A stretch of DNA of 64,000 nt from Granulicella sibirica (GTDB lineage: Bacteria; Acidobacteriota; Terriglobia; Terriglobales; Acidobacteriaceae). The stretch covers positions 124,001 to 188,000 of the forward strand of contig NZ_RDSM01000005.1 of assembly GCF_004115155.1 (NCBI RefSeq). Direction: 5' to 3'. Both the position numbers and the translations under genes were made by a program. Of the stretch, positions 4,302-40,018 are shown piece by piece; the stretch's first letter is position 1; every line of letters begins with the position of its first letter. A model generated the notes under the pieces. It had not been told where the DNA came from and did not search any database. It saw only the letters and a program-made list of their open reading frames with translations.

Positions 4302-4363
4302 ATTGGCAAGCCTTTCTTAAAGTTTGGCGAGCACGCGGTTAGCCATGAGCTTAGACGAAGTCC

Positions 4364-5599: not shown

Positions 5600-5603
5600 C
5601 GCG

Positions 5604-6068: not shown

Positions 6069-6070
6069 GC

Positions 6071-6433: not shown

Positions 6434-6548
6434 TCCTAATCCTCGATGGCGGAAAAACCGCACTCAGTCATGTGTAACGGAGCGAGAAGGCGGTGTTGTC
6501 ATGCGTGGGCTATGAGATTGTCAGGAAATTGTCGTGAGCGGAGTTGCA

Positions 6549-11098: not shown

Positions 11099-12774
11099 CG
11101 CGAGCCTCCGGAGGTACGGTATGTGAGTTGAACCGTAAAGGACGAGTTGAAGTGTGTGGTTGAGGAGAGCAGAGGGAAGTTCCAGCGCTCGACTTGCTCC
11201 TGGAGGCGAAGCGTAAGATCAGGCCGAACGGCCTTCTCGAAGTTCCATTGCAGATCCCTCAGTGTTCCGCCGCGCAGAAAGTCGCTTGCCACGTTCTGCG
11301 AACGGACGCTCATCTCGACGAAGGTGCGTGGAGAGGGATGCCACGTGAGCCATGTCTGCGTACCGTGGGCCTCGCGGCCTATCCAACTGCCCAGGAGTTG
11401 CCGGCTGTTGGTGTAGCCCGACAGGTAATGAACGTTGAAATAAAAAAAACCGCTGAATGCATTCGAACGATGCGGGGACAGCAGGCCTTCGATGCGCAGC
11501 GTCCAGTGTGAGTTGTGCGGGAAGGGGTGAAGTTCCAAACCAGGGAGCCATACGCTTTGCTTCGGGTAGTTCAAGGGGAATGGCTCGTCTTCAGCGAAGC
11601 TGTCGAGGTACACGGTGAGGACGTTTTGCAGTCCCGGTACTCTGTACCTTGTGTCGAAGGAGACGCGGCGGTCCCCAGGGTCCGCATTCTCCTCTCCGGT
11701 TCCAGTCGAGAAAAGACTCCGCAATAAGGTGCGGGTGGTGAAGGGCGCACCCTGACCAGCGAACAGCGTCGTACGCGCGACGCTGAACTCCCAGTTCGGG
11801 GTGGGTTGGAATGCTACCTTTTCGCCGTGGATGAAGGGTTGATCCGGAACAGAGACGCCCGGCGATCCGAACGTCTGGTGGTTCGTATGGACAAACTGTG
11901 TTCCGTTCAGGCGCCCGATGAATGCCTGGGCACGGATCGGTCCGAGGAACCGCAGCACACCGGGGAGAACAAATGGCTTCTCACGGTCATAGCGAAGCAT
12001 CAGGACAGGATCTGCATTGTTGGTGAAGAGGGAGCCGCCGTTTCTTCCGGGTCCCCAGAGAAGGGTCTGCCGTCCGAACGCGATTGTGTTTCCCGCGATG
12101 GCGAAGCTTAGGTACGCCTCGGGCAGACGTCCGCGAGTGAAGCCTGTTACGGGACCTTGTATGGCGGCTGGTGTGAAGTCAGCGGCAGAGATCTGTAACT
12201 GTGCAGCGGCCGATGGTTGTGGCGTCGGCGACGAGGTGGACTGCAGCTCTATACGCGCATACGCTGCGAAGTGGGAGAAGGTGCTCGAAGCCGCTACATT
12301 TGTGTAGGAGTTTTCGCCGCGCGCGAAGGGCCTTCCGTCATCATTCACGATAGTGGATGCGAAGTGATATCCGTCGTTGAGCGGCTCGCCGCCGATGCTT
12401 GTGCTGCGGGTGGAAAGAGCTTCAAGGCGTCCGGGTCTGGAACTTCCTTCGAGTTCCCTTGAGAACTCTCTCCGCAATGCGGCCAGGGTCGCATCGATAC
12501 CTGCATCGTCGCTTCGTGTCCGCGAAGCGCTCTCTGCTTCGAGCAGCATGGCCGCGCACCGACTGCGTGTCCATGGGCGAAGGGTAAAGAATGATGTGCG
12601 CAACAGACCTCGGGCGGCAAGCGTCTCCAGGGCGCTGTAGACCCAGCTCTGCGACGGCTCATAGATCGAGGCACGATCGCCTGGTAGCGTGGTGGCCGGC
12701 GCGACTTGTGCGGTTGCATGCATACAGAGACCGAGAACGATGAGAAGACGCCGGGACGTACAAGCACATTCCAT
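11095..12774 (-). CDS. Wzi-like outer-membrane capsule assembly protein
   Basis: The 559-residue protein has a signal peptide (RRLLIVLGLCMHATAQ) and a beta-rich body. Its early region, SQSWVYSALETLAARGLL, and later WGPGRNGGSLFTNNADP and the final VQLTYRT strand match the capsule assembly Wzi family, an 18-strand outer-membrane barrel that holds extracellular polysaccharide at the cell surface. It starts 6 bases after the SLBB gene and ends in an ATGA overlap with the chain-length gene. The exact role in this lineage is inferred from the family and operon. Confidence 0.85.
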   Translation of the reverse strand: MECACTSRRLLIVLGLCMHATAQVAPATTLPGDRASIYEPSQSWVYSALETLAARGLLRTSFFTLRPWTRSRCAAMLLEAESASRTRSDDAGIDATLAALRREFSRELEGSSRPGRLEALSTRSTSIGGEPLNDGYHFASTIVNDDGRPFARGENSYTNVAASSTFSHFAAYARIELQSTSSPTPQPSAAAQLQISAADFTPAAIQGPVTGFTRGRLPEAYLSFAIAGNTIAFGRQTLLWGPGRNGGSLFTNNADPVLMLRYDREKPFVLPGVLRFLGPIRAQAFIGRLNGTQFVHTNHQTFGSPGVSVPDQPFIHGEKVAFQPTPNWEFSVARTTLFAGQGAPFTTRTLLRSLFSTGTGEENADPGDRRVSFDTRYRVPGLQNVLTVYLDSFAEDEPFPLNYPKQSVWLPGLELHPFPHNSHWTLRIEGLLSPHRSNAFSGFFYFNVHYLSGYTNSRQLLGSWIGREAHGTQTWLTWHPSPRTFVEMSVRSQNVASDFLRGGTLRDLQWNFEKAVRPDLTLRLQEQVERWNFPLLSSTTHFNSSFTVQLTYRTSGGSR

Positions 12775-12780
12775 GGAAAG

Positions 12781-15759
12781 CTAGAGCGCAGCGACGGCTG
12801 CGGTGATTGCGATGGACGATGCAAGCTGCGCCGTGGCCAACAGATTGCGCCAAAGCAGCGAGTTGCCAAGGATCTTTTGTGGAACGACGACTACGTCGCC
12901 GGGATCGAGCTTGGTCGAGAGAACATTGGAGCCGAAGAAGCTTCCCGATCGGCGGCCAATTACCAGGCCGTTCGCGCGAATGATGAAGATCTCTTTTTGA
13001 TTGGCCGAAGTGTTCGCTCCGCCAGCGCGCGCAAGATACCAGGCCGCAGTCTTATCTGGCGTAAAGGTGAGGGCCGTTGGGTTATAGACCTGCCCTGAAA
13101 TAAGAACGAAACCTGGCCGCTTGGGAATCGTGAGCACATCGCCTCGACGCAATTCGATATCCGCAGGTGTGTTCGCCCAGGAATCGATATCGGCAGTGAT
13201 ATGGATGACAAGACGGCCGGTCGGCGGGTGGTTCTTGAGCTGATTGAGAACCTCATCCTGCTGCGCTTTGATTAGCTGCAGGCTATCCCCAGAACCACCT
13301 GCCGAGAGCGCGGGCGAGAGCCGAGCCGCGGCGCTCGTCGTCTCTATCTGGCGGACAAGCTCGTCGCGGCTCTTCTCTTCCAATTCCTTTACTTGGTCGC
13401 GCGCGAGGATGGCGCCTTCGGAGTACGCACTTTCGCGAAAGCCACCAGCCCGGCGTAACACGGTACTGAGGTGGTCGCCGTCGCGAAAGCCGTAGCTGCC
13501 AGGAAAGCGTACCTGACCATCGATCGTCACGGACTGACCAATATCGCCCCAACCAGTGATCTGGTGAACCGAGAGAGCATCTCCAGCCTTGAGGGCTACA
13601 TCGGCGTTGCGGTCCGTACCGGCGACCGCTGCGCCAATCTTGACGCTGACCAGGTTTTCGCTGATGCGGTCTTCACCTTCGACGGTATAACTCGTGAGGT
13701 CGGCAGTGGATTGCATAGCATCACGTTTGAAGCCGCCTGCCATGCGGACCAACCCCGCCGCGGTCATACCTATGGAGAGTGGATAGGTTCCCGGACGCAG
13801 AACCTCACCCTGAATGCTGACAGTCGGCGAATCTGCTTCATAGCGGCCTAAGATGCGAATCGTGTCGAAAGGCTCGAGAGCTAGATTGCTGTTGCCAATC
13901 ATCACGTCCGGAACGTTGAAGTCGATGGTTTCCGCGTGCAGATCTGGCGGTACGAGGCGGATGATTTCGCCGTGTGCCGCGGGCTCAGGGAGCATATCGC
14001 GGTTGCTACGCAGCACGTCGCTGAGCTTCATAGCATCGGAGAACGGGACACGGCCGGGACGTACCACGTGCCCTTGTAAGTAAATAACTTTCTGGCTGTA
14101 CGGTAGGATCGGCGAGACGCGAATGGCGTCCCCATCGCGAACTGCAAAGGTTTCGAGCGTTTGCTGGATCTTGCCGTCAGGAGAGCCGAGCGTAATGGTT
14201 TGGCGCTCATGATTGTCGGCGATGCGCTCGATGGTGATGTGGTCGAGGGCCGCAGTCGCCGTAGCGCCGCCAGCGTCTTCAAGAATCCCTGCGAGACTTG
14301 TCGTGCCTGGTAGAAGCTCATAGATCGCGGGCCGCCGCACTGCCCCTGAGATGCTGACCTGCGAGCCCGCAGGCGGAATGAGAAGCGTATCGCCGCTCTC
14401 GAAGTGGACCGAGGCGGAGTGCACGCCGTGTAACAGGAAGTCGTATAAGTCGATCGACTCAATAAGCCGACCACCACGCATGTGCCGAACGACACGCAGA
14501 GAGCCGGTTGCGGTGGGGCCGCCAGCCGCGATGAGTGCACTGATCGGAGTGGCGAGGGCGCCGATGTCGTAACCGCCTGGGCGTTGCACATCGCCCGCAA
14601 CATACACGCGTACCGAGTGAAGGCGCGATACCGTGATGGAGATATGGGCATCGCGGTACTGCGGTTTCAGCACGCCTTCGATCGCGGCGCTTGCCTGGCC
14701 TAGGGTCATGCCAGCGACCTGCATGCGGCCATTTTCCGGCAGGGGGATGGCCCCCTCGCGATCGATGGTGCGGCTTACCGTCTGGGATGTGGCACCCCAT
14801 ACGTTGATGCTGAGGTTGTCTCCCGGGCCGAGCACGTAGTCCGGACCAAGCGGCACATCCAACGGCGGCTCCGACCCAGCCAAGGTACGAGAGGTGCCGA
14901 GTGCATTCCTTCCCGTGAAGACGTTGGAGCCAAAGCGGCGAAGCGGCGTTGCGGACTCCGGCAACTGCTTGTAAAGGTCATGTAGCGAGCGAAGATTGTA
15001 GGGGGCGGGTCGATTCAAGACGTCGGGAGAGTTCCTCGGGCGGTCCTCTTTTGGCGTCGTATCCCGAGCCATATCGCGCGGCATCACGTAGGCACAGTTC
15101 GAGGCAAGAGCCTGCTCGGCACCCACGGTGTTGATTGCCGACGGCGGCATGAGAAACGTTGACGAGTTGATACAAGGTTGTGATGAGAGCGAACCAGGAG
15201 TCTGCGAGCCTTCTACCGGAGCCCGATTGCTGTCGAGACTATATCCACGCGCCAGCAGAAAGTCAGTGAGCGACGAGCGAAGCTGCTCGCTCGTCTGAAT
15301 CTGTTCGAAGAACTGCTGATCGGTGAAATCGTTCGCACTGACCGTCATACCTCGCTGGCTTAGGAATCCAGCGGCCTGCTCCTTCACCTGAGTAAGCAGG
15401 TCAGGGTTTCCCTGCAGAATGTCGATGAGATCCGATGATGAGAAGGATGTGTTGTTCGATATGGTCGGCACGGACATTGGCGCGGACATCGGCACGGAGA
15501 TGGGAGATGCGCCGACTGCATTGCGGGTGGACGAGAGGCTATCGTCCTCCGTGGAGTTGGCGCTCTGATCCGTCGCACTCAGGCTTTGCTGCCCGGGTGC
15601 GAAGGGGGTCTGCGACGAAAACAACGTGGCAGCCGCGTTTTGTGCCACGCCTGTCGCGGTGAAAGTTCCAGCGGTGAAGAGAAGGACGGCGATAGGGAGA
15701 AGCTTATGCATGATGGTGCGTCTGCTAACCGTAGTGGGGTTGGGTGCTTGCTGTGTCAT
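12781..15759 (-). CDS. SLBB-domain polysaccharide export protein (Wza-like, long form)
   Basis: The 992-residue product has a signal sequence (MHKLLPIAVLLFTAGTFTATG, residues 17-37), a Ser/Gln-rich low-complexity region to about 300, a Poly_export domain at about 305-385 (DYVLGPGDNLSINVWG is its hallmark), and then at least five or six SLBB-type repeats to about residue 910. It ends in a hydrophobic stretch. Ordinary Wza proteins are about 380 residues; this long multi-SLBB form is common in other phyla and should form the periplasm-spanning or outer-membrane exit channel. The ATG at 15759 overlaps the upstream stop (ATGA); an internal ATG at 15711 starts directly at the signal peptide and is also possible. 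Confidence 0.92.
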   Translation of the reverse strand: MTQQAPNPTTVSRRTIMHKLLPIAVLLFTAGTFTATGVAQNAAATLFSSQTPFAPGQQSLSATDQSANSTEDDSLSSTRNAVGASPISVPMSAPMSVPTISNNTSFSSSDLIDILQGNPDLLTQVKEQAAGFLSQRGMTVSANDFTDQQFFEQIQTSEQLRSSLTDFLLARGYSLDSNRAPVEGSQTPGSLSSQPCINSSTFLMPPSAINTVGAEQALASNCAYVMPRDMARDTTPKEDRPRNSPDVLNRPAPYNLRSLHDLYKQLPESATPLRRFGSNVFTGRNALGTSRTLAGSEPPLDVPLGPDYVLGPGDNLSINVWGATSQTVSRTIDREGAIPLPENGRMQVAGMTLGQASAAIEGVLKPQYRDAHISITVSRLHSVRVYVAGDVQRPGGYDIGALATPISALIAAGGPTATGSLRVVRHMRGGRLIESIDLYDFLLHGVHSASVHFESGDTLLIPPAGSQVSISGAVRRPAIYELLPGTTSLAGILEDAGGATATAALDHITIERIADNHERQTITLGSPDGKIQQTLETFAVRDGDAIRVSPILPYSQKVIYLQGHVVRPGRVPFSDAMKLSDVLRSNRDMLPEPAAHGEIIRLVPPDLHAETIDFNVPDVMIGNSNLALEPFDTIRILGRYEADSPTVSIQGEVLRPGTYPLSIGMTAAGLVRMAGGFKRDAMQSTADLTSYTVEGEDRISENLVSVKIGAAVAGTDRNADVALKAGDALSVHQITGWGDIGQSVTIDGQVRFPGSYGFRDGDHLSTVLRRAGGFRESAYSEGAILARDQVKELEEKSRDELVRQIETTSAAARLSPALSAGGSGDSLQLIKAQQDEVLNQLKNHPPTGRLVIHITADIDSWANTPADIELRRGDVLTIPKRPGFVLISGQVYNPTALTFTPDKTAAWYLARAGGANTSANQKEIFIIRANGLVIGRRSGSFFGSNVLSTKLDPGDVVVVPQKILGNSLLWRNLLATAQLASSIAITAAVAAL

Positions 15760-17039
15760 GCGTGGGTAAGCGAATTGTCATTGGTTTGTTGGTGCCGCGC
15801 TTCCACGCCCTTCCAGCGGGCACGTTCGAAAGCAAGCCGTGCGCCCTCAATCACATGGAAGCGGAGCCGGCGCAGCACGAAGAGCGATTGGCGCTTGTTC
15901 CGGCCCAGAGACTGTGCGAATGTTTCTCCGGGGACGGCCTGTTCAATCCTTGGCGGCAGACGTGTCGGCAGAACCTTCTGGCGCTTTGGTGCGGCTGCCC
16001 TCAGGCCGTGTGCCTCCAGCTCGTCCTGGAGAATCATCGAGAGTTTGCTGCCTCCCGCATTTCCGAGCGCTGCAGAGAGCCCAAAGCGGTCGATCCAGCG
16101 ATGCGCGAACTCCGGGAGACGTTCCGTCGTCCACGAGGTGAGTGCCTCCGGTGCGAAGGGACCCATGGCGCCTGTAAGCAGCGCGACCACGAAGCCCAGC
16201 GCAAACCTCGCGCCAGCGTCTTCTTCCGTCAGAACACGCAGACGTCCCCAGAAAGCGCGGTCATTCCATCGGTAAAGTATGTGCCGATATAACTCGACTC
16301 CGTGGGCCGCGCGCGCCCCCTCGCTTGCGAGATGTTTGTACAGGTGGAGCGCCTGCCCCAGGAAGAGGTCCTCAGGCGAAAGTACCGGCATGAGGATGCC
16401 CTGAAAGGGAAGGGACTCACGGCGGCGTAGGTGAGCCTGGCTTGCGGACGTGGTTGCTGCATGGAGTTCGACGGATCGCGAGCCCGTGTCCTGATAAAGC
16501 TGCTTGATGGAGGTGCGGGGAACCGGCTCGTCCTTGTACTCCCAGCTTCGTCCACTATGCCCGCGGAGATGGTAGCCGCGCTGCGCCACGATCGCTTGCG
16601 CAGACGCAAGGTCTGACGGCGCAACTAAAAAATCGATATCAAGTTGCGAGCGAAGCTCGAACGAAGGCACGGAGTGAGGCCAGAGCGAGAAGCCTTTGAG
16701 CAGCGCGCATTCCAGGCCATGGTTCTTGAAGCTCATCTGGATTGCCACGGCTTCGGCGGCCATGGCTTTCATCCGCATGGAGTTGTCTGTAACGTTTTGC
16801 TGGAGCCGCTCGAGGACCTCGAGAGGCAAGTGCTTCGCCAGCCCAAGATCCGGAAGGCGAACGAAAAAGTAGAGCGCCAGACCAGAGACGTCGAGCCAGT
16901 ACAGGAGACGTTTCCATTCCGGTGGCGAGAGATCGAGGAGTCTATCCAGTTCCGCCGGTGCATTCGTGAAGGACCGCAGTACGGCAAGCTGAACGGCTTG
17001 CCGACGAGAGATTCGCGAAGGTTTGTTGTCGCGTTGCAT
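15756..17039 (-). CDS. Nucleotidyltransferase-fold family protein (PF14907-like)
   Basis: The 427-residue protein has a nucleotidyltransferase-like core around LLKGFSLW and RSQLDIDFLV, where the DxD pair is the expected metal site, followed by a mostly helical C-terminal half. This matches the uncharacterised nucleotidyltransferase family often found in capsule and exopolysaccharide loci; the substrate is unknown. It is the first gene of the operon at 6549-17039, and its stop overlaps the SLBB start by ATGA. Its promoter should lie in the 161-base divergent spacer shared with the porin-like gene at 17201. Confidence 0.78.
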   Translation of the reverse strand: MQRDNKPSRISRRQAVQLAVLRSFTNAPAELDRLLDLSPPEWKRLLYWLDVSGLALYFFVRLPDLGLAKHLPLEVLERLQQNVTDNSMRMKAMAAEAVAIQMSFKNHGLECALLKGFSLWPHSVPSFELRSQLDIDFLVAPSDLASAQAIVAQRGYHLRGHSGRSWEYKDEPVPRTSIKQLYQDTGSRSVELHAATTSASQAHLRRRESLPFQGILMPVLSPEDLFLGQALHLYKHLASEGARAAHGVELYRHILYRWNDRAFWGRLRVLTEEDAGARFALGFVVALLTGAMGPFAPEALTSWTTERLPEFAHRWIDRFGLSAALGNAGGSKLSMILQDELEAHGLRAAAPKRQKVLPTRLPPRIEQAVPGETFAQSLGRNKRQSLFVLRRLRFHVIEGARLAFERARWKGVEARHQQTNDNSLTHA

Positions 17040-17200
17040 AGGAAGTACCCAACCCCAAGCTACGGACCATGGCGCAATCGCATGTCATCACCTTGTAACG
17101 CCATTGTCTCGATTTCCTGTCGTTGCCGATTGACAATGCTTTGACAAAGTTCCGACGGCTGAAAGACACCTTTCAGGGAGCCACCTTGTAGCTTCACGGT
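17040..17200. promoter_or_regulatory. Divergent promoter region with two TTGACA boxes and a hairpin
   Basis: This spacer separates the exopolysaccharide operon (minus) from the porin-like gene (plus). On the plus strand there are two TTGACA hexamers at 17130-17135 and 17141-17146, joined as TTGACAATGCTTTGACA. A perfect 7-base inverted repeat CTGAAAG/CTTTCAG with a 4-base loop lies at 17159-17176, about 25 bases before the ATG. No convincing -10 box was found at standard spacing, so the exact start site is open. The hairpin could be an operator or a 5' UTR element. Confidence 0.45.
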
Positions 17201-18259
17201 ATGTTTAGTCCCCGGGCGTTTCCTCCTTCTCATGGGTCGTCGGTGAAGTGGCTGGCCCCGCTTGTACTCTGTCTCGCTGCGCAGATCTCCACGGCGCAGA
17301 ACACTCCGCTGTTGTCAGGTGGCCTTGCATTCCAGACCACGACGAATGCGGGCCAGACGTCTTACCTTCCGTTGCTTGAACCGCTTGTCGCCGTACCACT
17401 CGGCGAGAAGTTCTTCTTCGAGTCGCGCGCAGCCATCCTCGAAGACTTCTTTCCTTCGAACGGCAAATATGATCACTCTCACTTCGCAGGCTTTACCTAC
17501 GCGCAGGTAGCCTTTCTGGCGTCACCGCGTCTCACCCTGGTTGCCGGGGATTACCTGCTCCCGTTCAACGTCTACAACGAGCGCCTCTCGCCGGTCTGGA
17601 TCAGTAACCTGCAAGATAGCCCTCTCATGAGCAGCATTGGTCTGATGTCCAGTGCCAGTGGCCTCGGAGGCATGGCGCGTGGAAAGGCTGTTCAGACTTC
17701 GAAGTACTCCATCGACTACGCTGCGTTCTTCTCCGCTCGGAGTGGTAACCAACAGTTCGGCGCGACTCGTGCCGCCGGCGGCCGCGTCAGCCTGTATGTT
17801 CCGGCACATCGGTTGGAAGCCGGCCTGAGCTACGACCGTTCGCTCCAGGGACCACAGCCGCAGCATGAGAATTTCTATGGAGCGCATGTGTGGTGGGAGC
17901 CAAAGGACATGGGGTTGCGCTTTCGTTCCGAGTTCGCCCGAGGCCATCATGCGCAAGGCTATTGGATCGAAGCGGACTACCGCACATGGGCGTTCGGAGG
18001 GCTTAATAGCTGGGTGGGTCGCATCGAACCGGTATTTCGTATGCAACAAACCTTTCGTCGCGACAACATTGTGAGCGATGGTGTGCCGCTGGTGAATACG
18101 CAGCGCGCGGACTTCGGGCTCAACTATAACCTGCCACACAATGTCCGGATACTCACAAGCTATTCCCGCCAGTTTTCTTCATCCGGCGACCACAACATCT
18201 GGGAAACCTCAATCGTCTATCGCTACCTGTTTCCAGCATGGAAGGAAAAATCGAAATGA
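17201..18259 (+). CDS. Porin-like outer-membrane beta-barrel protein
   Basis: The 352-residue protein has a signal peptide (VKWLAPLVLCLAAQISTAQ) and alternating hydrophobic strands suggesting a barrel (ESRAAILEDFF, TYAQVAFLASPRLTLVAGDY). The last clear strand, WETSIVYRYLF, ends in Phe, but it is followed by the charged tail PAWKEKSK, so the terminal Phe signature is not exactly at the C-terminus. No substrate can be assigned. It is followed by a small cytochrome c gene whose ATG overlaps its stop, which repeats the porin plus redox protein pairing seen at 1-1779. The ATG at 17201 has no strong Shine-Dalgarno sequence nearby. Confidence 0.68.
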   Translation: MFSPRAFPPSHGSSVKWLAPLVLCLAAQISTAQNTPLLSGGLAFQTTTNAGQTSYLPLLEPLVAVPLGEKFFFESRAAILEDFFPSNGKYDHSHFAGFTYAQVAFLASPRLTLVAGDYLLPFNVYNERLSPVWISNLQDSPLMSSIGLMSSASGLGGMARGKAVQTSKYSIDYAAFFSARSGNQQFGATRAAGGRVSLYVPAHRLEAGLSYDRSLQGPQPQHENFYGAHVWWEPKDMGLRFRSEFARGHHAQGYWIEADYRTWAFGGLNSWVGRIEPVFRMQQTFRRDNIVSDGVPLVNTQRADFGLNYNLPHNVRILTSYSRQFSSSGDHNIWETSIVYRYLFPAWKEKSK

Positions 18260-31195: not shown

Positions 31196-31333
31196 CTAAC
31201 ACTCCTCGAACATGCGCCATAGGAGATGTTGTAGAACAGGCAAGCCCTCTGACGAACTGATCCATCGCGAGTCGTAATCGTCACCGGCGTAGCTAATGAA
31301 GATATCGTAGTCAAAGCCCGGGACGTAGGGCAT
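31196..31333 (-). pseudogene. Broken TIR-domain gene, 5' end only
   Basis: An AAAGGG ribosome-binding site eight bases before an ATG starts MPYVPGFDYDIFISYAGDDY, the classic first strand and BB-loop entry of bacterial TIR proteins. After the Trp at about residue 23 the frame gives non-TIR sequence and stops at codon 46. The next frame reads FVRGL just after the break, as expected for the TIR helix, so a frameshift is likely. The catalytic Glu region is absent. It lies 126 bases downstream of the dynamin/TIR cluster, so it may be a lost component or an older TIR gene. Confidence 0.7.
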
Positions 31334-31459: not shown

Positions 31460-33427
31460 TCAGATTGCATTGATCGAGCATTGCATATCCTGCAGGCGCT
31501 GCCGCATCGATAACATCTCGGTCGAGAAGCGGGTAAAGCGCTCCTGGTCGGCAAGGCGGGAGTTGGCACGGCGCTCGCGCGCGGAGTTGGCGAGGGCGAG
31601 CTGATGGTCGACTTCGGTAAGGGCAAGCAGGAACTGGTGGTCGAGGACTGCGTAGTAATGGGAGATCAGGATGTTGAGAGACGCGCGGTGAGCCGGGAGA
31701 CATCTCTGCCAATAAACCGCGGTAGCCTCACTGAAGGCGGTCCGGACCAGTCCTCTGAGATTGTTCAGGCGGAGCTGGTCGGTGACGGAGCGGGTAAAGT
31801 TGGGCCCATAGGGAGCTTGGGGGGTGATGCTGACATCGTCGGCCCAATCTATGGAAAACATCAGCGATTGCGTGAAAGCAGAACAGCGTTCAGCCTCTTC
31901 TTCATCGGGAAACAGGTTGGCAAAGATGATTTCCGTTTCGGGAGCTTCGAGTCCTGCGTCGAGGCCGAGCCTGCTGGCCATCGTTGGCGCGGGTGAAGGC
32001 GGCGCAGGGGCCAAAGAGGCTTCGAAACCAAGGGAGAGGTGAAGCATGACACGGTCGAAGATGCTGATGAAAAGAGACAAATTGGAGATGACCGGGGACA
32101 GTCCTTTACCAAGCGTGGATAAGAGCGATGAAGCAGCCGACTCAATAGCTTCATCGAACTCTGTCTTGAGGTGATCAGCGAGTGCGCGAAGATAAGACGA
32201 GAGCGCGGGGATTTCCAAGTGCTGTACGCCGAGGTTCAGCGAGGGGTACGTTTCCTCGGCGACGCGCTCAAACTCTCTAGGAAAAGCTGTGATCAGAGTA
32301 CGCAGCGTGATGGAGGCGTGGACGCGCTGCTCTTCAATGCGGGTGCGAGAATCGGCGATGAGCCACTGGAGGGATCGCAGGATGTGCGGCGCGTCGTCTT
32401 CGAAGGATTCGCCAATGGGCAATAAGGCGGCGTTGAGGCGGGAGTTGAGCTCCTGGGTGAGTTCCACGGCGAAGCCGTTTATACGCTCGGCAGCGAGACG
32501 GAGTGAGACAAGGCCGCTCTCTGAAGAGAGGAAGTCTTCAAGGGCGCTTTCAAAGACGGGCAGGCCGCTGCGTTGAAGAGCAGCTTCGTCTCCGTTCATT
32601 TTTGCCTGCAGGGCATCGTAGCCGGATACAGCGAAGACGCGCGTCTTGGCGGTGCGCAGGAAGTCTGCGCGGGCGTGCTCGTCGGGAAAGAGCGTCGCGA
32701 CGAAACGTGCGACCGTGTCTTCGATGCGAGAGGTGACCACGGCCAGGATGCGTTCCCGCTCGCCGGGCGTGCGGATCTTGTCGATGCCGGTGACGACGAA
32801 GAGGAAGCTGCGCAGGCCGTACTGGGTCATGGCCAATTCGAGGAAGGAAGCTTCGGTCTGAGAGAAGGGCGCGGTCGCCATGAGAACGAAGACTGCGGCG
32901 TCAACACGGGGCAGGAGGCGAAAAGTAACCTCGCTCATAGCGATCTCGTCGGAGAGGCCGGGAGTGTCGATGATGTCGATGTTTTGCTTGCAGAATGGAA
33001 TGGGGTAGTACACGTTGGCTTGCTCGACGGTGGCGGCCATGGCCTCCGCTTCGGGTGTGAGCTTGGTGACGTAATGTTCCAGGCGAGCGATGTCGATGGC
33101 CTGTTCCTCCGTGGCACCACGAAAGATGACGCTGGCGCTCGGTACGAGTCCATACGTGATGCGATTGATGGTGGCGGAGGCGGGCGCAATGTCAGCGGGG
33201 AGGATGTCCTTGCCAAGAAGGGCATTGATGAAGGTGCTCTTGCCGCGTTTGAACTCGCCGACCACGGCGATGATGAACTTATGCGTCGTGATGCGGTCGC
33301 GCATCTCTGCCGTGCGGGCAGCTAGGTCCGGCATGCCGATGGTGGCGGCAAGAGCCTGGAGGCGATCAAGGTCCGCGACGAGGGCGAACTCCGCTTGACG
33401 GTGGGTGAGAAGGGAAGGATGGCTCAT
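31460..33427 (-). CDS. Dynamin-like GTPase (third GTPase of the cluster)
   Basis: The 655-residue protein has an N-terminal helical lead and a dynamin-family G domain: P-loop GEFKRGKST at 57-65, G3 DTPG at 154-157, and G4 TGIDK at 213-217 (Thr replaces the usual Asn). The remainder is mostly helical, as in bacterial dynamin-like proteins, with a moderately hydrophobic stretch (LSPVISNLSLFISIFDRVML) around residues 440-460 that may touch membrane. The P-loop region is very close to that of the GTPase at 37883-40018, marking them as paralogues. It overlaps the preceding gene by ATGA and closes the operon. Confidence 0.88.
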   Translation of the reverse strand: MSHPSLLTHRQAEFALVADLDRLQALAATIGMPDLAARTAEMRDRITTHKFIIAVVGEFKRGKSTFINALLGKDILPADIAPASATINRITYGLVPSASVIFRGATEEQAIDIARLEHYVTKLTPEAEAMAATVEQANVYYPIPFCKQNIDIIDTPGLSDEIAMSEVTFRLLPRVDAAVFVLMATAPFSQTEASFLELAMTQYGLRSFLFVVTGIDKIRTPGERERILAVVTSRIEDTVARFVATLFPDEHARADFLRTAKTRVFAVSGYDALQAKMNGDEAALQRSGLPVFESALEDFLSSESGLVSLRLAAERINGFAVELTQELNSRLNAALLPIGESFEDDAPHILRSLQWLIADSRTRIEEQRVHASITLRTLITAFPREFERVAEETYPSLNLGVQHLEIPALSSYLRALADHLKTEFDEAIESAASSLLSTLGKGLSPVISNLSLFISIFDRVMLHLSLGFEASLAPAPPSPAPTMASRLGLDAGLEAPETEIIFANLFPDEEEAERCSAFTQSLMFSIDWADDVSITPQAPYGPNFTRSVTDQLRLNNLRGLVRTAFSEATAVYWQRCLPAHRASLNILISHYYAVLDHQFLLALTEVDHQLALANSARERRANSRLADQERFTRFSTEMLSMRQRLQDMQCSINAI

Positions 33428-34503
33428 TTAGCTTGGGAAAGCGCTTCGGCGCGCAGAGCTATGGCCTCGACCTCGAAGCGAATTGCGTCGTTCTGGAGGC
33501 CGCCGGATGCGATTATGCCGGAGGTCTCTGCGAGTAGGGTGTGCTGATCCGCAAACCAGGCGTCGATCTCGAGTTTGAAGACGGTATAGCGGCCGCTGAT
33601 AAAGTTGAACACATGTTGGACGGTGACTGCTCGTTGGATCTCCCAAGCTTCGTCGATGAGGGCGAAGGTGGCGGCAAGGGAGGCCTGCCGGAAGGCGTTG
33701 GAGCGATCGGCGCCGGGAGCTGCGGGTTTGCCCGGGACGTCTACGCGGAACTTGCGTAGAGCGGGAGCGATCGGGGCCTGGAGAATGGTGGTGAGCTCCA
33801 GGAGTAAAGGAAATGGAGGTTCCGTTTCGGCGGCGGGCTCAGAGTAGACACCTACTTGCTCGAGTAACTGCTCCTCCAGGCGAGTGGCGCGGTCGAGGAG
33901 CATGCCAGTCATCTCTCCGGTACTGGGTTTCTGCTGAACGGCGCGGACCAGTTCATCGCAGGTCAAGAAGAGCGCGAGAGATTTGCCAAGCTCTTCGAGG
34001 AGGGCAGGCAGTAGGCTCGCGTAGAGCTCGCGAGCGAGGGAGGCGGATGCGTTGCGGAATGCCTCCATCAGCTGACGATGGAGGCGTGAGGAGGGGTCCG
34101 GCGCAGGTGAGCTGAGGTCGGCCGGCGAGAGGCGGAAGTCCGCAATCGACCTTATGGCAGCACGCTGCCAGAGCAGAGGCAGAGATTCGATCTTCTGCCG
34201 GGCGGCCTCACAGGCTGCGGCCGCTGCACGATCGAAGTCCGCCATCTCGCGGCGGTTCATGAGCTCAAGCTGACGGAGGATGGAGGCGAAGCGCTGCCAG
34301 GATTCGGCTGACCCGTGGATGGGGGAAGGGGGTCGAGTCAGATATTTGCTGATGGAGAGACAGGCAGAGCGGATCTGGGCGGCCTGGGCATTCGGCTCGG
34401 CGTCCGAGGCGGCGTCGATCGCGGCGGCTAGGCTTTCCATCTGGAGCGAGTCTGCGAGCTCATGGAGACGGTCAAGGTACAGGCTGGCTTCGTAGAGACT
34501 CAT
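33424..34503 (-). CDS. Helical protein of unknown function in the dynamin/TIR operon
   Basis: The 359-residue protein is not recognised. It is predicted by eye to be nearly all helical, rich in Ala, Leu, Glu and Arg, without signal peptide, membrane segment, P-loop or metal motif. ATGA overlaps on both sides place it between the TIR-dynamin fusion and the third dynamin-like GTPase, so its dose is tied to theirs. A role as an adaptor or as the helical stalk partner of one of the GTPases is possible (inference from context only). Confidence 0.75.
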   Translation of the reverse strand: MSLYEASLYLDRLHELADSLQMESLAAAIDAASDAEPNAQAAQIRSACLSISKYLTRPPSPIHGSAESWQRFASILRQLELMNRREMADFDRAAAAACEAARQKIESLPLLWQRAAIRSIADFRLSPADLSSPAPDPSSRLHRQLMEAFRNASASLARELYASLLPALLEELGKSLALFLTCDELVRAVQQKPSTGEMTGMLLDRATRLEEQLLEQVGVYSEPAAETEPPFPLLLELTTILQAPIAPALRKFRVDVPGKPAAPGADRSNAFRQASLAATFALIDEAWEIQRAVTVQHVFNFISGRYTVFKLEIDAWFADQHTLLAETSGIIASGGLQNDAIRFEVEAIALRAEALSQAK

Positions 34504-36806
34504 GCTGCGGGATCCTTTGCCTCCGGCCAGAGGCGGTCCTGAAGAGCGGCAAGCCTGCCGCCCGCCTCTGCGACGAGAGTTGGGATGGATTGAAGAGTTT
34601 CACGCTGCCATGATGTGTCGTCTCTGGCCGTGAGCAGACGACCCTGGCGGAGGGCGTCGAGCGAAGTGTCAACACGTTCCTGCTGGCGGGCTTCAAGCTC
34701 CTGCGCGACGCGGTCGGCGATGCCAGCGTAGATCTCGTCCATCCTGGCGCGGAGAGAGCGGCGAAGCTCCGGGACGGCGTTCAGGAAACGCTGCTGAAAG
34801 AGGAGGGACTTCTCGCGCTCGCGGCTCTTGCTCTCAAACTGTCGCAAGAGACTGCCGGTGATGCCGAAAACTTGTATCTGCGTGAGATCGAAGAGCAAGC
34901 TGGAGACGTCCACTCGCTCCCAGAGGGAGTCGTCAACGGCGACGCCGGGCTCTGCAGTGTGGCTGACGCTGCTGGTTTCGTCGAAGGGCCTGCGCAGGGC
35001 CGGTCCGGTCGCTGCGTGGTCTCCGTCGAGGGAAAGCGGGCAGTTGGCTGCGCCGGCGAGTTCACTGAGGATCAGTGGCCGGTGAGCGTCTAGGCAGCGG
35101 TTGAGGGCCGTGCGGAGGCCGTCGGCCAGGAAGAAGGGGAAGTGGCGCTGGAGGTCGGACGAGCTGACCGTGGCGAGGCTACGGGCGCTTTGTTCGAGGC
35201 GGTTGATGAAGCCGTCGATCCAGCCCTGAGCCTCTGCGGCGAGGTCGAGAATGAAGCTGTGAACCCGTTGGGAGTGTTCTTTGAGCTCCGCGTGCAGGGG
35301 CGAGGCCGGGTCTTCGCAGACTGTAATAGCGGATTCGAGATGAGTCCTCTCCATCTCCATGGAGCGGGTGAGCTGGTCGGCGTGGCGAGACACTGTCTGG
35401 ATGAGCTTTGCGAGGCCGTCAGCGGCGCGGTCGAGCTGGACGAGCTCCCGGTCACGCAGGACGGACTCCTGCAGGTGGGCGCGGAGCTGGACGAAGCGGG
35501 CGGCGAGGGACTCCGCCCGCTCGGGCCGTGGACGTGGCTCGTTGTTCAGGCGAGCGAACTCATCAAAGGCGCTGACCCCGAGAACGGTGGCGTCGGGAAA
35601 GAGCTGGGCGACGCGGCGGTTGAGGTTGTTCATGATGCTGGAGACATCCTGCTCGTCGCGGAGCTTGTCCAGCATGTTGACCACGAAGGTCATCTTGCCG
35701 AAGTCCTGGGGGAGGACAGCGAGCTTGAGAAAGGCGCGCTCGGATTCCGGAAGGGGGTCGAGGGCGGAGAGGACGACGAGAACAGCGTCGGCGTGAAACA
35801 GGTACTCCTGAATCCGAGCTTCAAAGCGCTCGAGGGCATCGCCAGTGCCAGGAGTGTCGACGATACGGAAGCCGCGGAGCCAGTCGATGGGAACACGGAG
35901 GTCCAGGTGGGTGGGCTCGGCGGGGAGCCTTGCGAGGAGTGGGGCAAGATTTTCATGCTTGAGCTGGTCCGGGTTAAGGCCGAGGCGGCCGCCGCCTGGA
36001 AGGTGAGCTTCGATTCTGAGCTGAGGTCCGAAACGGATTTCGTTGATCGTGATGGTCTCCGGGGCGACATCCGAGGTGACAACCTCCTGCTGGAGGAGCC
36101 CGTTGATCAGCGTGGATTTGCCACGCTTAAATGGACCGATAACGGCGAGAGTGAACTCGCGGTTGAGGCGGTCGCAGATCTGCTCCTCATGGCGACGCCA
36201 GCGGTGGAGAGTATCGCGACCGAAGACGCGCTCCATCGACTGGCTCTGGATGGATTCGGAAAAGCGCTTGAGGAGTTCAAGGAACTCCTTCCGCTGTGCT
36301 TCAGGCTCGTAGTAAATGGTCCCCGAAGAAGGTGTTGGGGATGAGCTTTTTTCGCCGGGTGGCTGGCATGCGGCGAGTGCAGCAGCCCGAGAGGCAATTT
36401 CGGTGAGTTGCCCGAGGATCTGCGGCCCATCGCCGGCCCAGACAGGCTTCTTTTCGCCCACTGCCACTTGCAGCTTCCTGAGCCAGGGGACGCTCTGCCA
36501 GGCACAGCTTTTGGCGATGATGGGGAGGACCGTGAGTTGGTGGGCATCGCGGCGTTTGAAGATGGCCGGCAACTCGACGTCGAGGATGAACTTCGAGTTG
36601 AGGAAGTCTGCGGTGATGAGAAGAATGGCCATAGACGATCTGTCGATGTGGTCGAGGATCTCGGGTTGCCATTCTTCGCCGTGATGAAGGTGGTCGTCGA
36701 CCCAGAGCTCAAAGGAGTCGCCGCAAACCTTGAGCTGCGTGGCGAGCTCGTTCTTTTCCGCGATGTCCTTTCGGCTGTAGCTAAGAAAGACAAGAGGTTT
36801 GGTCAA
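34500..36806 (-). CDS. TIR domain fused to a dynamin-like GTPase
   Basis: The 768-residue protein begins with a TIR domain (about 1-140): strand A LVFLSYSRKD, then ELWVDDHLHHGEEW, and FLNSKFILDVELPAIF, whose Glu78 is at the position of the NADase glutamate. A linker leads to a dynamin-type G domain with P-loop GPFKRGKS at 224-231, G3 DTPG at 317-320 and G4 NMLDK at 377-381, followed by a helical stalk to the C-terminus. The start is TTG, preceded by AGAGG eight bases upstream; an ATG just before it meets a stop after three codons. Fusion of a putative NAD-cleaving or signalling domain to a membrane-remodelling GTPase suggests abortive defence triggered by GTPase state (inference). Confidence 0.88.
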   Translation of the reverse strand: MTKPLVFLSYSRKDIAEKNELATQLKVCGDSFELWVDDHLHHGEEWQPEILDHIDRSSMAILLITADFLNSKFILDVELPAIFKRRDAHQLTVLPIIAKSCAWQSVPWLRKLQVAVGEKKPVWAGDGPQILGQLTEIASRAAALAACQPPGEKSSSPTPSSGTIYYEPEAQRKEFLELLKRFSESIQSQSMERVFGRDTLHRWRRHEEQICDRLNREFTLAVIGPFKRGKSTLINGLLQQEVVTSDVAPETITINEIRFGPQLRIEAHLPGGGRLGLNPDQLKHENLAPLLARLPAEPTHLDLRVPIDWLRGFRIVDTPGTGDALERFEARIQEYLFHADAVLVVLSALDPLPESERAFLKLAVLPQDFGKMTFVVNMLDKLRDEQDVSSIMNNLNRRVAQLFPDATVLGVSAFDEFARLNNEPRPRPERAESLAARFVQLRAHLQESVLRDRELVQLDRAADGLAKLIQTVSRHADQLTRSMEMERTHLESAITVCEDPASPLHAELKEHSQRVHSFILDLAAEAQGWIDGFINRLEQSARSLATVSSSDLQRHFPFFLADGLRTALNRCLDAHRPLILSELAGAANCPLSLDGDHAATGPALRRPFDETSSVSHTAEPGVAVDDSLWERVDVSSLLFDLTQIQVFGITGSLLRQFESKSREREKSLLFQQRFLNAVPELRRSLRARMDEIYAGIADRVAQELEARQQERVDTSLDALRQGRLLTARDDTSWQRETLQSIPTLVAEAGGRLAALQDRLWPEAKDPAA

Positions 36807-36891
36807 GAGCTCATCCTCTCTGATCGTCTAAGGTGCTCTCTCTCAATCGTTCTGGGCAAGGGCTTGAAGCGGAAGTCTGCGCGTGTTGTCT

Positions 36892-37890
36892 TCAGTTGCC
36901 GAGCAGGCCGGCGGCGATGCTGTCGGTTTCAGCTTTCGACTTCAATTCGGAGGGCCTGCCAAGGTCCGGCCTCCACTGATAGAGGAGATCGCATTGCGTG
37001 AAGACCTTGAGGGCCTCAATGCGCTTCGGGAGGACGGGGTGGGTCGCGAACCACTCCAGGAAGCGAACAGGGGACTCGCGGGTCTGGTTGAGCTGGTCGG
37101 TGTAGGCATCGACGTTGATGCCGCGAAGCGATGCAGCTCCGCCGGTAGCAAGGCTGGCAAGAGCGGTCTGGGCGATCGGGAAGTCGCCGCAGCAGATGAG
37201 CCCGGCGCGGTCGCAGGTGACCTCAGCAGCTCGGCTCCAGGATAGGAAGAACATGCGCAGCGCACCAGCGACAACGCCAGTGACTAGCCTGGCCTGACCG
37301 AGGGTGGAGATGACGTCGTAGGCCACGCCAAGCCCGACCATCTTCTGGCAGATGAGGCGGGCGAGCGGATTGGTGAGATTCTGGACGGCGGTATTGTAGG
37401 CTCCATGCAGGTTGTGGACGTGGCCGCACTCGTGGCCAACGACGAAGAGGAGCTCGGGCTCGGTGAGCTTTTCAACGAGTTCGGACGAGAGAACAAGCAT
37501 CGGGGCGACGTCATCAGTGGCGATGGTGTAGGCGGAGAGCTCCGGTGAAGCCATGATGTAGATGCGGGGGATGCCGATGCCGAGGCGGCGGGCGCAGTTC
37601 TCGCCAATGGCATGGAGGTGGGGGAACTGGCGGGGGCCGACCGCCACCATTTCCATGGCGTGGATGTGTTTCTGGATGGGCTCCGTTGCGGCGGCAATCG
37701 AGCGCACGAACTGGCGAGCGGCGCCGATGGAGGCGATCTTCTGGCGGAGGGAGTAGTCAAGGCCATAGGCGTAGTCGGCGACACCTCCGGGACCAGTGTG
37801 GGCAGAAAGATTGCGGTCTCGTTCCCGGGCGAACGTGGCGAAATCCAGACTGACATCGAGAGTGGGATCGAGAGTCTGGAGCTTAGACAT
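36892..37890 (-). CDS. M48-family zinc metallopeptidase
   Basis: The 332-residue protein has the zinc motif HECGH at 153-157 in VVGHECGHVHN, with the likely third ligand Glu223 in AAEVTCDRAG, as in M48 peptidases (HtpX/Ste24/YcaL type). No signal peptide or clear multi-helix membrane region is seen, so it may be cytoplasmic, though a hydrophobic stretch at about 203-216 could contact membrane. Its ATG overlaps the end of the anchored dynamin gene by 8 bases; the longer open frame is only a shadow of that gene. An 85-base gap follows before the TIR-dynamin gene. In this setting it may activate or cleave a neighbour protein (inference). Confidence 0.85.
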   Translation of the reverse strand: MSKLQTLDPTLDVSLDFATFARERDRNLSAHTGPGGVADYAYGLDYSLRQKIASIGAARQFVRSIAAATEPIQKHIHAMEMVAVGPRQFPHLHAIGENCARRLGIGIPRIYIMASPELSAYTIATDDVAPMLVLSSELVEKLTEPELLFVVGHECGHVHNLHGAYNTAVQNLTNPLARLICQKMVGLGVAYDVISTLGQARLVTGVVAGALRMFFLSWSRAAEVTCDRAGLICCGDFPIAQTALASLATGGAASLRGINVDAYTDQLNQTRESPVRFLEWFATHPVLPKRIEALKVFTQCDLLYQWRPDLGRPSELKSKAETDSIAAGLLGN

Positions 37891-40018
37891 GGGTAATCTC
37901 GGCCAGTTGGTTGGAGAGCCGGAGAGCCTTGCTGCGGATAGCGATGACCTCATCACGAATCTCTTCGGATTCCTGGCGGCTGCGCTGGTCGAGAACCTCA
38001 TTGCGGGCGCGGTTGTCGCGGAGGCCGTCGAGGGTAGCCTGGGTCTGGTCGATGGAGCGGCTGAGCTCGCCAATGAGGCGGTCCTTGAGGGTCGCGAAAA
38101 GGTTCTCGTTATTTTCGTCAACAGAGTGGGAGAGGTTGCGGCTCCTGACCTCCTCGTCGATGCGCTGGAGGATCTCCTTGCGGTAGCGGGTCATGAAGCG
38201 CTCGGCGCGGTCCTCGCTGAAGGCCCAGCGCGCCATCTTGCCTCCGGTGAAGATCGAGATGAGCCCGAGGCCGATCATGATGGGAAGCGAGAGAGGAAGA
38301 CTGATCGCTCCGAGGAGGAGGCCGCCGACGAAAAAGGTTCCGACACTGGCGACTCCTCCGACAGCCGCGCCCTTAAAGCCGGCTTCGCGATAGCCTGACC
38401 ATATCCCCCCGAAGCCGGTGAAGACGGAGATGGCGGCGACGATGGCCTCATTGCCGCGCGTGGCCTGTTCGGATGGATCAAGCTGCACGGTGCCGAACTG
38501 CTGCTCGATGCCGCCGAGGGTCTCTCCAACGTTAACAGCGAAATCCTTAAGACGCTCGATCTCAACCTGGAAATCCCGTTCGATTTCGAGCTGAAGTGCT
38601 TCCGAGGAGCGAAGGACGCGCAGCTTAACGGCGCTGCTGATGCGCTTGTTCAGGTCTTCGGTGAAGGCGGGTAGCTTGTCCTTGGTGAGATCGTCTGAGG
38701 TCGGATGGGTTGCGTCGATGACCTCTCCAGCGGCCGCAGCGAGATCGTCGCCAAGGCGGGCGACCATGGGTAGCAGGCGCTGCTGCGTGCGGAATTTGGC
38801 ATTATCGATTTTACGGATCTCGGCATCACGGCGGCTACGAAGGCTTTCGAGTTCCGCGACGGCCTGTTCGTACTTGGCCTGAAACTCATGCTGAGCCATG
38901 CTGATGGCACCGAACTCGATATTCAATTTCTTGACGATCTCTTCACTCGTGGCGAGGATGCGATTCGCGATGACCTGGAGTTCTATGGTGCCGCGACCGT
39001 GAGTGAGGAACTTTTCAAGCGCGGACGTGAACTCGGAGAAGCGGCTCTCTTCCATCAGCTTCTTGTTATCGCTCTCTTGGGCCTCGAGTGCCAGGGCGGA
39101 GGAGAGCGGAAAGACAGTGGGGTTACCGATCTGCTGGCGATAGCGCTTGAAGTCTTCGCTCGCAGGGTCAAACTGCTCCCTGAGGCGCATGTCAACGGCA
39201 TCGGTGATGCGCTTTTCAATCACCTTGACAATTTTTTCGCGATCGCGCGGGGAGCGCAGGCGATCCATGGCGTTGACCACAAAGAGGACGCGGCCGAGAT
39301 CGTTGAGCAGCAAATGGCGGGTGAGGAACTCGCCTTCGTAGTGGTCGAAAGGAGCTTCTGGCATGATGACCAGTATGGCGGCGTCGACCTTGGGCAGGAC
39401 GGACATAGTCACGGCGGTCATTGTGTCGTCATCGTTCAGCCCCGGGGTGTCGATAATGTCGACATTGTTGCGGCAGTACTCGGTGGGGTAATGGACGATG
39501 GCTTCTTCCACCTGGGCGGCATTCGATTCGGACTGCGGGGTCAGCTTGGTAACGTATTCGGAAAGCTGGGTGATGTCGATTTCTTCGGTGCGAGCCTGTT
39601 CTCCGGGCTCGGCCTTGTAGTGGATGGTGACTGAGGGTCGAAGCGCGTAGGTGACGCGATTCAAGGTGGCGGAGCAGGGCTCTACGTCCGACGGCAGGAT
39701 ATTCTTGCCGAGCAACGCGTTGATGAAAGTGCTCTTGCCACGCTTGAATTCACCGACGACAGCGATGAGGAAGCGTTTGTTCTCGATGCGGCTGAGCACC
39801 TCGCGAGTAAGGTCCACGATCGAGGGATTAATCTTAGTTTTTACGGAGAGATCGATGATGCGTTTGAGGTCTGTGACGCAGCCGAGTTCGATACGCTTGT
39901 AGGACAGGAAATCATTGGGCGAACCGCCAGCCGGTGCAGATGAGTCGGGGTTATCTTCCTGGGACTGCGTCTGTGCGTGGATGGTCGATGACTCTTCAGC
40001 GATTCTCGAATCGGACAT
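37883..40018 (-). CDS. Membrane-anchored dynamin-like GTPase
   Basis: The 711-residue protein has a G domain with P-loop GEFKRGKST at 89-97, G3 DTPG at 190-193 and G4 NAMD at 249-252, then long helices (about 355-500) and a strongly hydrophobic Gly-rich hairpin at about 548-593, which should insert in the inner membrane, followed by a C-terminal helical arm. This is the architecture of bacterial dynamin-like proteins such as BDLP and LeoA. A strong GAAGGGGGG precedes the ATG. It is the first gene of the five-gene cluster, and the long upstream spacer likely holds the promoter. Confidence 0.9.
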   Translation of the reverse strand: MSDSRIAEESSTIHAQTQSQEDNPDSSAPAGGSPNDFLSYKRIELGCVTDLKRIIDLSVKTKINPSIVDLTREVLSRIENKRFLIAVVGEFKRGKSTFINALLGKNILPSDVEPCSATLNRVTYALRPSVTIHYKAEPGEQARTEEIDITQLSEYVTKLTPQSESNAAQVEEAIVHYPTEYCRNNVDIIDTPGLNDDDTMTAVTMSVLPKVDAAILVIMPEAPFDHYEGEFLTRHLLLNDLGRVLFVVNAMDRLRSPRDREKIVKVIEKRITDAVDMRLREQFDPASEDFKRYRQQIGNPTVFPLSSALALEAQESDNKKLMEESRFSEFTSALEKFLTHGRGTIELQVIANRILATSEEIVKKLNIEFGAISMAQHEFQAKYEQAVAELESLRSRRDAEIRKIDNAKFRTQQRLLPMVARLGDDLAAAAGEVIDATHPTSDDLTKDKLPAFTEDLNKRISSAVKLRVLRSSEALQLEIERDFQVEIERLKDFAVNVGETLGGIEQQFGTVQLDPSEQATRGNEAIVAAISVFTGFGGIWSGYREAGFKGAAVGGVASVGTFFVGGLLLGAISLPLSLPIMIGLGLISIFTGGKMARWAFSEDRAERFMTRYRKEILQRIDEEVRSRNLSHSVDENNENLFATLKDRLIGELSRSIDQTQATLDGLRDNRARNEVLDQRSRQESEEIRDEVIAIRSKALRLSNQLAEITHV

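Follow-up and report, generated by a model that had tools for sequence, protein, structure and literature searches.

A five-gene operon of Granulicella sibirica with three dynamin-like GTPases, a fused TIR domain and an M48 peptidase: a candidate membrane-associated immune device

The 64,000-nt stretch of Granulicella sibirica DNA analyzed here (the window) carries, from 40018 to 31460 on its minus strand, five genes, A to E, whose ends overlap or nearly touch. They encode a dynamin (A), an M48 zinc peptidase (B), a TIR-dynamin fusion (C), a helical protein (D), and a further dynamin (E). Sequence comparison leads us to propose, with a probability of about 0.6, that this operon works as an immune or abortive-infection device built from several dynamins and associated with the membrane. 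The proposal is based on the conservation of the order A-B-C, the exchange of effector domains on C, and the occurrence of a third dynamin only beside a catalytically intact B. A patchy distribution outside a Bacillota clade also favors it.

Genes A and B share 8 bases, a gap of 85 bases separates B from C, and C/D and D/E each overlap in the tetranucleotide ATGA; because of these overlaps, the short gap, and the ATGA coupling, the five genes look like a single coupled operon. Pfam searches placed Dynamin_N in A (1e-28, residues 85–250), C (6.6e-15), and E (7.3e-27), TIR_2 in C (2.1e-13), and Peptidase_M48 in B (1.7e-24), and the G1, G3, and G4 motifs of the dynamin G domain are all present in A, C, and E. 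These matches and intact motifs confirmed, at the same span, the five-gene cluster with three dynamin G domains, a TIR fusion, and an M48 peptidase that an initial annotation of this DNA had described. The solved structure closest to A is BDLP (2j68, E 4.6e-31), and its match to the helical domain PF21808 (26.1 bits) falls slightly below the 28.3-bit cut-off. In a 19-residue hydropathy scan A reached a maximum of 2.09; no segment above 1.5 occurs in B, C, D, or E.

The HECGH motif reported earlier for B is present, together with a downstream Glu (AEVTCD) that we take, from the M48 family, to be the third zinc ligand; B thus has the HEXXH plus Glu signature of M48 peptidases. Its hydropathy maximum of 1.41 indicates that it has no membrane segment. 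A sequence search for solved relatives of B found none. HtpX was rejected as an identity for B, since its best NCBIfam HtpX score was 46.3 of 245 bits and the membrane segment is missing. The TTG start of C lies at the same place in the alignment of its closest relatives. Glu-78 of C, which had been named as the expected catalytic residue, does occupy the catalytic TIR position; it aligns with the Glu of MEL in the flax L6 TIR, and 16 of the 17 rows in the alignment, of which the window is one, have it; only P0014, with a different TIR, does not. Structure prediction, one of the checks suggested earlier, was informative for C and not for D. The AlphaFold2 model of C (mean predicted local distance difference test, pLDDT, 71.1) resembles a mitofusin/Fzo1/IniA/BDLP-like dynamin plus a plant-type TIR, and helices 428–759 form a long trunk after the G domain. 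Coordinates are collected in Table 1.

Table 1. Genes and predicted functional sites of the operon (window coordinates; aa, amino acids).
Feature	Position	Strand	Size or start	Description or basis
Gene A	40018-37883	-	711 aa	Membrane-type bacterial dynamin, first gene of operon
P-loop of A, GEFKRGKS, residues 89-96	39731..39754	-		Motif check
Hydrophobic paddle-like segment of A, residues 550-596	38231..38371	-		Hydropathy scan
Gene B	37890-36892	-	332 aa	M48-family zinc peptidase
HECGH zinc/catalytic motif of B, residues 153-157	37420..37434	-		Sequence; conserved in 21/80 related loci
Presumed third zinc-ligand Glu of B (AEVTCD)	37222..37224	-		Kept with His, Glu, His in 21/21 catalytic relatives
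Gene C	36806-34500	-	768 aa, TTG start	TIR-dynamin fusion
TIR domain of C, residues 1-146	36369..36806	-		Putative exchangeable effector
Glu78 of C, putative NADase catalytic residue	36573..36575	-		Alignment
G domain of C, residues 220-377	35676..36149	-		Pfam and motifs
Gene D	34503-33424	-	359 aa	All-helical protein, probable headless dynamin trunk
D residues 76-172, match to trunk of A-type dynamins	33988..34278	-		A-trunk HMM
Gene E	33427-31460	-	655 aa	Third dynamin

To examine related loci, an alignment of 17 TIR-C rows, the window among them, served as bait in GTDB species genomes. The scan gave at least 496 confirmed relatives, of which the best 80 were kept and all examined. Since the bait patterns favored Bacillota, the counts of loci describe this sample and not the world: by record title, 71 are from Bacillota, 6 from Cyanobacteriota, 2 from Pseudomonadota, and 1 from Actinomycetota, and one of the 80 is a metagenome bin titled Klebsiella pneumoniae that is probably misnamed. 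The order A-B-C was found in 79 of these 80 loci from other genomes, with an A-type homologue upstream of C in the same 79; the remaining one, L041, is a 3.1 kb contig that starts at B. The conserved unit is therefore A-B-C, and E and D are additions. It is well supported that A, B, and C form one evolutionary unit with a swappable effector. The expected conserved neighborhood of all five genes held in part, as homologues occur together in several phyla, but only A-B-C is conserved as a unit. The condition that homologues are never found together, named at the outset as a refutation, does not apply, because the core recurs in several phyla and carries exchanged effector domains.

Two related loci have further genes beside the core. 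In a Firmicutes metagenome-assembled genome (MAG; L010:4115-11647), a dynamin, a DUF2752 protein, and a zinc-ribbon CD225 (IFITM-like) protein precede the core, so that a single gene row combines dynamin with membrane domains of the interferon-induced type. At L011:12243-13973, a SLATT/SLOG-like protein, below the Pfam cut-offs, lies close downstream of A-B-C.

Exchange of effectors was assessed on 120 listed C relatives out of 759 in a protein search; ten proteins were rescanned and the others were classified by precomputed domains. TIR was found on 18 (the window included), CHAT on 15, EAD7 on 6, and a protein kinase on 2, where P0098 was counted as EAD7 although below the Pfam cut-off. When only the effector-bearing rows were compared on a quick tree built from 118 cores and 7 loci, TIR fell in 2 places, kinase in 2, CHAT in 1, and EAD7 in 1. 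With "none" treated as a state there were nine changes (TIR 4, CHAT 2, kinase 2, EAD7 1), some of which may be losses or truncated rows or genes; about six gains would be implied if the bare state were ancestral. The core of P0014 is 75.7–86.9% identical to those of P0003/4/5/11 and its TIR only 21.5–25.2%. Because the core is so much closer to those of its neighbors than the TIR is, we read P0014 as a recent TIR exchange. A dynamin from the E search, P0200, has a fused caspase domain and a contig of the same length as that of another E-list dynamin. When the fused domains of four proteins were compared with PADLOC effectors, they matched ThsB TIR (66 bits), chat (63), caspase (70), and PD-T4-6 kinase (326). 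Conflict systems are commonly marked by a constant core on which toxic domains are exchanged. On this evidence, C is an effector socket on a constant dynamin core.

Individual members of this family vary further. P0062 and P0069 are C-type dynamins fused to a protein kinase, that of P0062 being the PD-T4-6 match of 326 bits. P0098 is a 1083-aa C-type dynamin in which about 430 N-terminal residues have no Pfam match at 0.001, possibly an unknown effector. In P0032 the EAD7 (residues 170–231) sits within the G domain and is not terminal.

The presence of CHAT, caspase, and TIR domains on relatives could also be explained by inter-bacterial or stress-triggered programmed cell death, in which the same assembly would kill when competitors attack with toxins or damage the membrane. 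Death systems, too, make use of CHAT, caspase, and TIR domains, and the absence of a demonstrated defense-island enrichment among 83 neighboring proteins (below) suits this explanation as well. Nothing specific speaks against it; the mechanism up to loss of NAD would be identical and the trigger alone would differ. We consider it rather improbable.

The state of the peptidase divides the 80 loci. His, Glu, His, and Glu of B are intact in 21 and lost in the other 59, where B is nonetheless present. A third dynamin lies near the core in 19 of the 21 loci with a catalytic B and was seen in none of the 59 with a dead one; the two exceptions among the 21, L006 and L041, run off their contigs. At least 3 kb is available upstream of A in 39 of the dead-B loci, downstream of C in 48, and on both sides in 36, so that absence of the third dynamin is firm for 36 of the 59. 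Where present, it lies upstream in 17 of the 19 loci and downstream in L004 and L014. The dead-B loci (L023-L040, L042-L081, L083) are Bacillota in 59 of 59 cases and form a pseudo-peptidase lineage between A and C; 58 of them were sorted by title, 33 as Ruminococcus, 10 as Oscillospiraceae, and 2 as Hominimerdicola. Because dead B is retained and the third dynamin tracks catalytic B, these data suggest that B always binds and, in loci with a third dynamin, also cuts. By a Cys-motif test, 10 of the 12 Bacillota loci whose B is active have a small zinc-ribbon open reading frame (ORF) located between A and the third dynamin; Pfam confirmed it in all six Bacillota loci scanned.

In a quick tree with long branches, where placement is tentative, E falls in an E-type clade whose neighbors are the A proteins from two Pseudomonadota loci, from an Acidobacteriota MAG, and from the window itself. 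Outside this clade lie the third dynamins from Bacillota and the majority of the cyanobacterial ones. Among 119 rows of the E search, 27 match a C row in the length of their longest contig, compared with a jittered expectation of 0.5 (maximum 5 in 2000 trials). Such equal-length links to E-type rows were found for 7 of 18 TIR-C rows (window included), 1 of 2 kinase, 1 of 15 CHAT, and 2 of 6 EAD7 rows. One such contig, of 12,102 bases, also has the A-type P0166, which in the tree is closer to A than any other protein. The TIR-C relative P0017 is from an Acidobacteriota MAG. Chance clustering of unrelated genes, for which nothing speaks except the rarity of the five-gene form, is rejected because 79 of 80 loci repeat the order A-B-C; the 27 contig matches and the ATGA coupling also contradict it, and we give it a negligible probability.

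The dead-B loci bear on another explanation, in which A-B-C would be a membrane-maintenance module for remodeling or repair of the inner membrane when the envelope is stressed, with TIR, CHAT, kinase, and EAD7 as regulators and not death effectors. The retention of a dead B and a bare-length C in 59 Bacillota loci fits this explanation, as do the zinc-ribbon neighbors in Bacillota, CD225 in L010 (in L011 below the Pfam cut-off), and the membrane surveillance and tethering described for DynA and Cj-DLP in the accessible text of PMC8844932 and PMC6104087. However, one core carries several effector types that resemble known defense effectors, TIR was exchanged recently, and distribution is patchy outside the dead-B Bacillota clade. 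We regard membrane maintenance as unlikely, though it is the most credible of the alternatives.

D, an "unrecognised helical protein" in the initial annotation, indeed has no match in Pfam, PADLOC, or NCBIfam and no P-loop, but it looks like a dynamin trunk rather than an unrelated protein. Among 8000 scored candidates it matches only itself. In the proteobacterial locus L006, a 270-aa ORF starts at the stop codon of C, a position equivalent to that of D. Against 3565 ORFs, the best non-self matches of D were an A-type dynamin (L014, E 0.0034), the L006 ORF (0.049), and further A-type dynamins, and the best non-self match of the L006 ORF was D (E 0.09). With an A-type dynamin profile D scored 10.6 bits and the L006 ORF 10.4, with 1000 shuffles of D reaching at most 3.1; with C and E profiles D scored within the shuffle range. 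A hidden Markov model (HMM) of the A trunk alone matched D (E 0.011) and the L006 ORF (E 0.033) over overlapping parts of the profile, and the two were the top P-loop-less ORFs in this search, fragments and variants of real dynamins aside. Comparison of D alone with A, C, and E profiles by hhalign gave nothing significant, and its structure model is poor (pLDDT 43.7). Taken together, D is probably a dynamin trunk that lacks the GTPase head.

A mechanism consistent with an immune or abortive-infection device would begin with A, which, via its hydrophobic paddle, would sit at the inner membrane and assemble upon membrane disturbance or changed GTP turnover. C, without a paddle here, would be recruited into the A lattice, and crowding of C would bring TIR domains together, so that Glu-78-dependent hydrolysis or cyclization of NAD stops the infected cell. 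B would dock on the A/C assembly, a role kept even when dead, and cleavage by active B of a dynamin-type partner, E or D being likeliest, would serve as a licence or a brake. Lacking a GTPase domain, D could cap or space the lattice and thereby set the threshold. More broadly, the operon could represent a new class of immune signalosome. Membrane state would be sensed by a dynamin-M48-dynamin core instead of a STAND or cyclase sensor, and the core would then activate one of several exchangeable death domains (TIR, CHAT, caspase, kinase, or EAD7-recruited), with the peptidase cutting a dynamin-type partner as licence and D capping the lattice; we hold this as a tentative idea, with slightly less than even odds.

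The initial annotation could not match this combination to a named system, and the features tested here set it apart from Eleos, DynA, and Thoeris. Thoeris is defined by a ThsA-type partner with SIR2 or SLOG. The TIR of C, with its catalytic Glu, matches PADLOC ThsB (66 bits, residues 5–185 of C), but it is a domain of a dynamin fusion, and none of the five proteins has a SIR2 or SLOG match in Pfam; Thoeris was rejected for want of the ThsA-type partner. No TIR is known on the bacterial dynamins of solved structure (Cj-DLP1/2, IniA, SynDLP, BDLP). Eleos, the LeoA/LeoBC dynamin defense, is grouped with "Dynamins" in the accessible text of PMC11811056. Like Eleos, the operon has dynamin-like GTPases, and A, C, and E match PADLOC LeoA (98, 75, and 55 bits). 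In contrast, it has three dynamins, an M48 peptidase, a fused TIR, and a headless protein; its NCBIfam LeoA scores for A, C, and E are 13–18 of 325 bits; and LeoBC is the best match of no protein, LeoA being the better model for A, C, and E. Eleos was thus rejected, with LeoA far below the NCBIfam cut-off and no dedicated LeoBC partner.

DynA of B. subtilis is the closest experimental parallel: according to the accessible text of PMC8844932, it gathers into membrane clusters when phage infect and postpones lysis, which shows that a bacterial dynamin can delay phage lysis. It shares with the operon the dynamin family and a plausible membrane role. DynA consists of two dynamins fused in one protein (PMC6104087) and, as far as the accessible texts of PMC6104087 and PMC8844932 go, has no TIR or peptidase. 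A, C, and E scored 55.5, 50.7, and 71.5 bits against the 1600-bit equivalog cut-off of NCBIfam DynA, which was rejected. For Cj-DLP, the available text of PMC6104087 never mentions a peptidase. The DO-GTPase/GAP1 conflict systems (Kaur et al. 2020; PMC7159879) likewise couple a GTPase switch to variable effectors, but DO-GTPases are described as another TRAFAC family, and the word dynamin is absent from the text of PMC7159879 that was available. In the open full-text literature, searched by title and abstract start, with subscription papers and preprints mostly outside this scope, no description of a dynamin-M48-dynamin operon or a bacterial TIR-dynamin was found among the papers listed.

Distribution was sampled with two or three candidates scored per genome, in phylum and class samples that overlap. 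Full-length C was absent from 395 other genomes of the sampled phylum, where other matches were to the TIR or dynamin part alone, and from 398 other genomes of the sampled class. At 1e-60, with the centers excluded, C-type matches occurred in 0 of 291 genomes of the cyanobacterial center's phylum and in 1 of 397 of the Firmicutes center's; the single match in 376 genomes of the proteobacterial center's phylum was the L014 genome, already known. Since full-length C is absent or nearly so in the sampled phyla, the module seems to be uncommon and its occurrence scattered; in the bait scan it was denser among Oscillospiraceae.

Within the window, the genes around the operon include ones for a transporter and a lipocalin; others look, by eye, like TonB-type and ASPIC/UnbV-type genes. 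The left-flank permease occurs in 1 of 31 genomes of the genus, that of the window (assembly of 6.14 Mb), and in none of the 30 others; since it is private to the source genome, the operon lies in a variable region. The right-flank gene has matches in 11 of the 30, the closest of which (G1051) is on a contig of 4.4 kb that lacks the left side. An empty site could not be demonstrated among the 30 genomes, the G1051 contig ending before the left side. GC content at third codon positions is 0.717–0.784 in the five genes, inside the range of eight neighbors (0.603–0.808), and overall GC of B, C, and D (0.624–0.631) is slightly higher than that of neighbors (0.563–0.617). Promoter and terminator scans gave no signal above shuffles, and Rfam gave no match. 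A repeat search gave two short direct pairs and one palindrome. Just downstream of E, a 45-codon ORF (31196-31333, minus strand) has a TIR-like N-terminus by eye (MPYVPGFDYDIFISYAGDD) and no Pfam match; it is possibly the remnant of a second TIR gene. A further TIR gene in the source genome (G000:C1:5527-6069) matches the TIR part of A1 with E 1.9e-28.

Genes around the core were scanned in 20 loci (L004-L022, L082) as 84 ORFs of 110–900 aa at locus positions 3500–17500; one that overlapped a core gene was dropped, leaving 83. PADLOC matched 51 families, and of the 25 shown, one had two members and 24 had one; strong single matches were an endonuclease effector (3.2e-58) and mad3 (2.1e-56). 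Pfam matched 146 families, the zinc ribbon being commonest with 12 members.

Several findings weigh against an immune or abortive-infection role. Defense-island enrichment, which the initial annotation had anticipated, is not supported so far: the scattered PADLOC matches among the 83 neighbors, with no background rate, neither demonstrate nor exclude it. Searches for C gave one match in plasmid records, to the TIR part only, one unannotated match in phage records (MT836781.1), and none in viral contigs. No recognized effector was found on 79 of the 120 listed C relatives, and among the 80 loci TIR is on C in none and CHAT in one (L007). In the 59 Bacillota dead-B loci C does not exceed 627 aa, which leaves no room for an added domain. 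These dead-B, effectorless loci fit housekeeping, the other refuting context named at the outset, and the core may also do housekeeping, because they keep A-B-C with a dead B, a short C, and no third dynamin seen. As all 59 are Bacillota, the absence of a third dynamin from them may reflect a single loss or event. The C-E linkage was read from equal lengths of each row's longest contig, not from DNA. The C proteins of L006, L010, and L014 have hydrophobic segments, so that the division with A at the membrane and C away from it is not general. Finally, the link of D to dynamins is only at E of about 0.01.

The phage match deserves a separate description: MT836781.1 is an 8.8 kb "Bacteriophage sp." record of human fecal origin, whose positions 4310-5497 encode a C-like dynamin with 29% identity over 51% of C, and it may be a bacterial contig.

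Bacterial dynamins are known in phage defense. Here the coupling of a membrane GTPase to cell death would be written in the genes, as the same kind of dynamin bears different death domains across species. The retention of B though dead, with the tie of its active form to a third dynamin, points to a definite hypothesis on its substrate. A dynamin trunk that has no GTPase would, if true, be an unusual regulator, and a mitofusin-like fold with a TIR would be a bacterial parallel to membrane-linked innate immunity.

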